DNA from: Phycisphaeraceae bacterium
GTDB lineage: Bacteria > Planctomycetota > Phycisphaerae > Phycisphaerales > Phycisphaeraceae
Assembly (NCBI GenBank): GCA_029260715.1
Contig: JAJDCS010000041.1
Coordinates: 1-64,000, forward strand
DNA: 64,000 nt
Reading direction: 5' to 3'
Within the stretch, counting starts at the first letter, position 1. The number at the start of each line of letters is the position of its first letter. Below are positions 30,521 to 31,634 of this stretch, in pieces. The notes under the pieces are model-generated. The model was given only the letters and a program-made list of their open reading frames with translations, did no database searches and had not been told where the DNA came from. Made by a program: the position numbers and the translations under genes.

Positions 30521-31634
30521 CTACCGCTTCGTGCCGGCCTTGGTCCGTCGCATAAGTTCAGCGTCGATAAAGCCCTGGAGGTCCCCGTCGAGCACACGCT
30601 GAGGGTTGCCCATCTCAAAACCCGTGCGGTGGTCCTTCACACGGTTGTCGTAAAAGACGTAGCTGCGGATCTGCGTGCCCCAGCCCATGTCCAGCTTCCC
30701 GCCGGTGGCCGCGTCCCGCTCCTGTTTGCGCTTCTCTTCCTCCAGCAGTTCCAGCTTGCCGCGCAGGATCGACATGGCCCGCTTCTTGTTCTGCTCAAGC
30801 TTGCGCTGGGCAGAGCAGACGACCACGATGCCCGTGGGCTTATGCGCCAGGCGCACAGCCGTGGCTAGCTTGTTCACGTTCTGCCCGCCCGGCCCGGACG
30901 AACGTGCGAACGGCGTGATCTCCAACTCGTTGTCGTCGATCTCAACACCGCCGGTGTCTTCAAACTCCGGGATCACGTCCACCGCCGCGAAGCTCGTCTG
31001 GCGCTTGCCCTGCGCGTTGAACGGCGATACCCGCGCCAGCCGGTGTGTGCCGCGTTCAGCAGACAGATACCCATACGCCATCGGCCCCTTCACGTAGAGC
31101 GTCACGTCCTTAAGCCCGGCTTCTTCGCCGATGGTCTTGTTCATCTCGCTCACGTCCCAGCCCATCGCCTGGAAATAATGCAGGTACATGCGCATGAGCA
31201 TCTCGGTCCAGTCCTGGGCTTCGGTGCCGCCCTCACGCGAGTAAATAGAAAGGTAGCAGTTGGCGTGGTCGTACTTGCCCGACAACAGCGACACTGTCTC
31301 TAGCCGGTCCAGCTCGTTTGCCAACGCATCAAGATGCCCGTCGACCTCCTCGCGGCTGTCTTGGTCGTCTGCCTCCTGGGCCATCTCCCAAAGCAGGTTC
31401 GCGTCGTCAACGCGCGTGGTTACCTTCTCCACCGGCTCAAGCAACGCCTTCGTCGCCTTCAACTCGGTGACGATCGCGTTGGCTTTGGTCTGGTCGTCCC
31501 AAAAACCCTCAGCCCCCATCTGCTTTTCAAGCGCTTTGAGCCGCTCGGCTTTCTGATCGTAGTTAAAGAGAGTCGCGGATCGTTAAAACCCGCGCCTTAA
31601 GGTCTTCAAGAAGGGAAGGGATGTTGTCGTGCAT
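30521..31634 (-). CDS. prfB: Peptide chain release factor 2, with programmed +1 frameshift
   Basis: RF2 ends translation at UGA and UAA. ORF1 starts at ATG 31634 and encodes 23 codons ending DSL, then hits TAA at 31563-31565. Skipping one base at CTT-TAA-C continues as [14 protein letters not shown] and joins the rest, 370 aa in total. SPF (about 203-205), the tripeptide that reads the stop codon, and GGQ (about 249-251) in the peptidyl-release loop are both present. The layout matches the classical autoregulated RF2 gene, but the stop is TAA, not TGA, and no AGGGGG-like sequence stands before CTT. Confidence 0.9.
31563..31568 (-). promoter_or_regulatory. prfB programmed frameshift site (CTT-TAA-C)
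   Basis: The minus strand reads CTT (31566-31568) and TAA (31563-31565), followed by C. This is the RF2 slippery site. The peptidyl tRNA slips from CUU to UUU while the stop waits for release factor. In Escherichia coli the stop is UGA and a Shine-Dalgarno-like AGGGGG lies upstream; here it is UAA and the upstream bases are GATCCGCGACTCT. Confidence 0.85.

Follow-up and report, generated by a model that had tools for sequence, protein, structure and literature searches.

The prfB gene in the window, by which we mean the whole 64,000-nt stretch of Phycisphaeraceae DNA analysed here, is likely to depend on a +1 programmed frameshift for RF2 autoregulation, with an mRNA hairpin in place of the internal SD element, as judged from comparative analysis of sequences. 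Among bacterial +1 frameshifts, that of prfB is the textbook example. An SD-like element is its conserved stimulator according to the available text of several reviews and surveys (PMC5009743, PMC12421855, PMC13245932, PMC3711429, PMC8710568). The largest survey, covering 12,753 genomes, describes in its available text an almost universal SD-like element and one mechanism in nearly all bacteria (PMC12421855).

The locus lies on the minus strand, in a genome of 3.3 Mb in 44 contigs. ORF1 begins with an ATG at 31634-31632, comprises 23 codons (31566..31634) and ends with CTT (31568-31566) directly before a stop that RF2 can read, UAA (31563..31565). The slippery CUU_U occupies 31565..31568 and a C follows the stop at 31562; both were kept in relatives. 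The rest of RF2 is open in the +1 frame (ORF2, 30521..31564, stop included) and carries GGQ and the SPF tripeptide. Its residues from 31561 onward scored 415 bits against NCBIfam TIGR00020 prfB, for which the cut-off is 370. The first codon after the shift is AAC (Asn), at the place where UGA sites have GAC (Asp). The E-site codon is UCU, which together with UAU counts as weak, and TCT was found at this position in 108 of 154 distinct sites. In E. coli prfB a C after the stop makes for weak termination, according to available passages of one survey (PMC12421855). The first-pass annotation had described a split prfB with UAA at the slippery site, a 23-codon ORF1 and no AGGGGG-like element before CTT, and this description held in full. 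Other E-site codons occurred in the class: UGG (in RDWL) replaced UCU in families f17, f19, f22, f23 and f25 (L180-L187, L192-L194), and f19 also had UGU (L269-L271). Both are unusual for prfB frameshift sites.

No SD-like element precedes CTT in the window prfB, and nothing of the AGGGGG type stands three nt before CUU. At the SD-less sites of the window's order, pairing with the 16S tail was close to zero, with a median of about 0.1 kcal/mol, compared with -10.2 for E. coli prfB. The window's genome has a normal 16S anti-SD (GGATCACCTCCTTTCT), which rules out an altered anti-SD as the cause. Two CTTTGAC prfB sites from Peregrinibacteria (Patescibacteria; L102, L114) had neither an SD-like element nor a stable upstream hairpin (GATAAAGATCTCCASTAT).

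The place of the missing element is taken by an inverted repeat. With the C of CTT numbered +1, its 5′ arm, CGCGGGU, runs from -26 to -20 (31588..31594), a 7-nt loop, UUUAACG, from -19 to -13 (31581..31587), and its 3′ arm, AUCCGCG, from -12 to -6 (31574..31580), all on the minus strand. The arms were delimited by covariation and folding, with the 3′ end at -6, and the loop by comparison and folding; the terminal bases of the loop could add one U:G pair. The 3′ arm sits where other bacteria have the SD-like element, and a 5-nt spacer, ACUCU (31569..31573), which includes the E-site codon UCU, separates it from the slippery codon. The predicted fold has an energy of -12.1 kcal/mol (centroid -11.4), with a stable stem of 7 bp that ends at -6, directly behind the E-site codon. 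Taken alone, the window hairpin was unremarkable (z -1.87, 6/200 shuffles). The first-pass annotation, in noting the lack of an AGGGGG-like element, was right in substance, though it had overlooked this hairpin at the SD position. Across 42 distinct sites from the order, the stretch of 30 nt that precedes CTT was nearly invariant (GCGCGGATYTTRACSATCCGYGACTCT) despite most codons being free to vary silently, and contained the inverted repeat CGCGGAU ... AUCCGCG.

Comparison was then extended across the class, to about 25 families with 102 distinct prfB sites. Across these, 91.3% of stem cells were paired, and 17-46% when one arm was slid by 1-3 nt. The covariation score was 0.227 against 0.102 for shuffled data, with 0 of 500 shuffles as high. 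The stem reads mostly CCCGGAU ... AUCCGGG outside the window's order and CGCGGAU ... AUCCGCG inside it. At pair -25:-7 both bases differ between the order and the rest, and both differences are silent (Ala GCC to GCG, Arg CGG to CGC). This pair was C:G in 45 of the 102 sites, G:C in 35, G:U in 6, U:A in 3, A:U in 2, U:G in 1 and another combination in 10, and pair -22:-10 was found as G:C, A:U, C:G and G:U. The third bases of the Ala GCN codon (-25) and the Arg CGN codon (-7) paired in 86 of 89 sites; shuffling gave a mean of 44.3 and never more than 62, and p was 0.0004 when the shuffling was confined to GTDB families. When 3′ halves were swapped among sites encoding the same peptide, 636.6 pairs (sd 4.9) were expected and 682 were observed. 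Independent contrasts on the RF2 tree favoured pairing in 3/3 and 3.5/4 cases with none contrary, each test being too small for significance. Single-site synonymous shuffles were weak, with a median p of about 0.1, as the peptide by itself already favours pairing. RNAalifold returned no consensus structure on the full 102 sites, as some families have lost or shifted the hairpin; a consensus was found for the window's order, and for the class minus five families. The compensatory changes point to selection on the pairing of the stem and not on its sequence. A covariance model of the hairpin matched 43 genomes and hit the prfB site only, once, in 42 of them; the 43rd, G465, gave two hits of the same score on two contigs. 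The hairpin site had no match in Rfam.

Presence of the hairpin was related to absence of the SD. In other classes of the phylum, AAGGAC, AGGGAC or AGGGGG, which are typical SD-like elements, occupy the place of the 3′ arm, and the stem is absent. Most class sites outside the window's order keep a weak SD-like CGGGA, which may act together with the hairpin, and within the order the stem is found with the SD destroyed (CGCGA). This series shows a stepwise path from SD (outgroup classes) to SD plus hairpin (CGGGA) to hairpin only (CGCGA). For the 154 distinct sites, those with anti-SD pairing weaker than -2 kcal/mol were classed as SD-less and those at -5 or below as strong SD. At least six of the seven stem pairs were present in 38 of 41 SD-less sites as against 2 of 26 strong-SD sites, counts that are uncorrected for relatedness. 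Of the three SD-less exceptions, two form different stems with an identical -6 end, L245 with CGCGC/GCGCG and L247 with GCUGCAG/CUGCAGC. The 3′ end of the stem was fixed at -6 also for hairpins unrelated in sequence. The distance from hairpin to CTT was likewise fixed while ORF1 length varied (MAEQTHTIESV... in L041, MHDN... in the window).

Relatives in which prfB has no internal stop are good natural controls. Five such genes with fused frames occur in the window's own family (L006, L008, L011, L012, L013) and one in another family (L118); on the RF2 tree, the frameshift was lost twice within the window's family. The four alignable family members and L118 have only 4-5 of the 7 pairs, and these relatives still keep a similar peptide with IRDSL-like residues. 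The first-pass annotation had held that a continuous frame in relatives would count against a frameshift. Such relatives do exist, and many others carry the split CTT TAA C site.

The stop codon of the window site is UAA in place of the RF2-specific UGA. UAA at the prfB frameshift is already known as a rare variant: among 8,164 frameshift-bearing prfB genes, TGA accounted for 98.6%, TAA for 1.4% and TAG for none, and the available text of that survey judges the TAA sites to be scattered and unfixed in clades (Prince et al. 2025, PMC12421855). In the window's order, UAA is the clade-level majority form, with repeated exchange. Of the order's 201 genomes, 85 contained the exact pattern CGNGAYTCTCTTTAAC. 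Its UGA version was found in 65, four of them second hits beside a UAA site and probably due to chance, which leaves a census of 85 UAA genomes against about 61 UGA; in the window's own family, the numbers were 28 and 7. The RF2 tree shows at least 7 changes of the stop inside the order and 9 overall, so the exchange looks like a tolerated one and not like a change of mechanism. Hairpin strength was equal at the order's UAA and UGA sites (both median -10.4 kcal/mol). UAA was concentrated in the hairpin-only group, and outside the order it occurred at 2 of 16 SD-less versus 1 of 106 SD sites (p = 0.045, uncorrected). The first-pass annotation had asked whether CTT-TAA-C is conserved in related prfB genes and had allowed for a sequencing error at 31563-31568. 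The site recurs at the same place in many relatives, including the complete chromosomes CP066225 (L037) and CP087563 (L052), which rules out both a sequencing error and an assembly frameshift. At the sites compared, the stop was only ever UGA or UAA, and UAG was not seen. This restriction, the kept C and the decay of the cassette after fusion argue for regulated frameshifting.

UAA is read by both RF1 and RF2. The RF1 of the window's genome is canonical and intact, with a PAT tripeptide (RVPATETQGRVHTS) and GGQ, and RF1 was present in 59 of the 61 genomes of the order; a missing or altered RF1 is therefore ruled out. The RF1 proteins of all 61 order genomes score below the curated TIGR00019 cut-off, though they are clearly RF1, and automatic annotation may miss the RF1 name, for the gene at G000:C33:146132-147193 as well as across the order. 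As for RF2, threonine at position 246 weakens the E. coli K-12 protein. The matching residue in the window is serine in an alignment by eye with the E. coli sequence, so that the window RF2 should read UAA well. The stop-recognition tripeptide of RF2 is SPY in L013 and L288, and a simple search for the SPF motif found no match in several prfB genes of family f10.

It could be argued that the inverted repeat comes about as a by-product of a conserved peptide (A-R-I-x-x-I-R-D-S-L) and GC-rich codon usage, and that the slippery stop alone suffices. Random codons that preserve the peptide do already average 5.0-5.5 of 7 pairs. However, the two positions that are purely synonymous co-vary, also within families, the frame-fused relatives have lost pairs under a near-identical peptide, and unrelated hairpins in other lineages end at the same -6. 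On these grounds a by-product seems very unlikely. It is also unlikely that the hairpin is real and serves another purpose, whether to slow initiation or early ORF1 elongation or to provide mRNA stability or insulation, with frameshifting merely tolerated. The hairpin is located some 40 nt downstream of the start codon, and structure at about that distance can affect expression; yet the stem keeps its distance from CTT and not from the start codon, decays where the frames are fused, and trades off with the SD.

The remaining alternative comes from the first-pass annotation: the unusual UAA would be the sign of a switch that has ceased to sense RF2, with a low RF1 level or constitutive slippage. 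That RF1 also reads UAA, and that UAA is the order's majority form, are in its favour. The puzzle it posed is nevertheless weaker than stated, since RF2 reads UAA too, and the absence of RF1 fails as a reason where a canonical RF1 is encoded and the gene is widespread. Moreover, UGA and UAA alternate among close relatives within the same cassette and at equal hairpin energy, and UAG does not appear. According to evidence cited in the available text of one survey, UAA is served mainly by RF2 in most taxa (PMC12421855). Loss of RF2 sensing thus appears quite unlikely, and UAA probably keeps RF2 sensitivity, likely shared with RF1.

A frameshift driven by the hairpin would proceed as follows. The ribosome would open the hairpin during translation of ORF1. 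Once CUU had reached the P site and UAA the A site, the 3′ arm would end 5 nt before CUU, immediately behind the E-site codon, and would then occupy the region otherwise taken by the SD:anti-SD helix. Re-closing of the stem behind the ribosome might pull the mRNA 5′-ward or strain the E site, either of which would favour re-pairing of the peptidyl-tRNA from CUU to UUU. This slip would compete with termination at the weak stop UAA-C, and RF2, helped by RF1 at UAA, would thereby limit RF2 synthesis. There is precedent for stimulation of this kind. With E. coli ribosomes, a synthetic hairpin placed immediately before CUUUGA reached about 60% of the +1 activity obtained with an internal SD, stimulated the shift only in the absence of RF2, and gave much less shifting when its stem was destabilised (Huang et al. 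2018, PMC6321510). In yeast, an upstream hairpin stimulates +1 frameshifting, and a 5′-ward pull by stem closure was proposed (Cho et al. 2013, PMC3639245).

The window site shares much with prfB of the E. coli type (AGGGGG UAU CUU UGA C): the gene, the length of ORF1, CUU_U, a stop read by RF2, the C after it, an E-site codon of the UCU/UAU type, and an ORF2 that encodes RF2. It differs in having no SD-like element, a conserved hairpin that ends at -6, and UAA for UGA. The CTTTAA variants of prfB have the internal UAA, CUU_U and following C in common with it; these are scattered according to the available text of PMC12421855, whereas here UAA predominates in an order and stands on hairpin-bearing, SD-less sites. 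Like the synthetic +1 hairpins (PMC6321510, PMC3639245), the window hairpin stands where the SD duplex would be, immediately before a +1 site. Those were designed, with a GC stem of 12 bp or 6 bp (12 bp in vitro in PMC6321510), whereas this one is natural, has 7 bp and has been kept in a gene by evolution. Phage T4 gene 60 and luteoviruses also have 5′ stem-loops at recoding sites, with a zippering model, as described in the available text of PMC5009743; they serve bypassing and -1 shifting, in contrast to a +1 shift at a stop in a cellular gene.

The UAA stop is known, and a hairpin that replaces the SD at a natural prfB appears to be the larger and new part of these observations. In the available text of five reviews and surveys (PMC5009743, PMC12421855, PMC13245932, PMC3711429, PMC8710568), all from the open-licence literature, no hairpin is named for prfB; an older subscription paper could have noted one. 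If the proposal is true, a whole bacterial class has swapped mRNA-rRNA pairing for mRNA self-pairing at the same place, and a purely synthetic hairpin result has a natural counterpart. The fixed 5-nt geometry between stem and P-site codon would then allow the slip by an upstream duplex in the +1 direction to be tested without touching the rRNA.

Similar geometry was found in other lineages. The chances seem to us about even that a hairpin-driven, SD-independent +1 shift is a second recurrent prfB architecture, class-wide in Phycisphaerae and re-arisen elsewhere with unrelated sequences, with the stem always ending 5 nt before CUU, and that in the window's order the loss of SD dependence was accompanied by freer UGA to UAA exchange. 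The cases elsewhere comprise other Planctomycetota (L247, L245, L263), Oscillatoriales cyanobacteria (L078, L091) and Caenarcaniphilales (L112). The prfB stem of Caenarcaniphilales is CGUGA/UCACG, and that of Oscillatoriales is CCUGGG/CCCAGG or CUCAGG, both in the same geometry. In the roughly 36 nt before CTTTGAC of five Oscillatoriales (L078, L086, L090, L091, L094), the stem CCUGGG-UAAAA-CYCAGG ends 5 nt before CUU; it shows one exchange of G:U to G:C and is unlike the Phycisphaerae hairpin in sequence. Family f15 (L175, L176, L177, L178) has a shifted hairpin, GAGCGC..GCGCTC, followed directly by an SD-like MGGGAC. This hairpin occurs in compensated form as GAGCGT..ACGCTC and is supported by RNAalifold.
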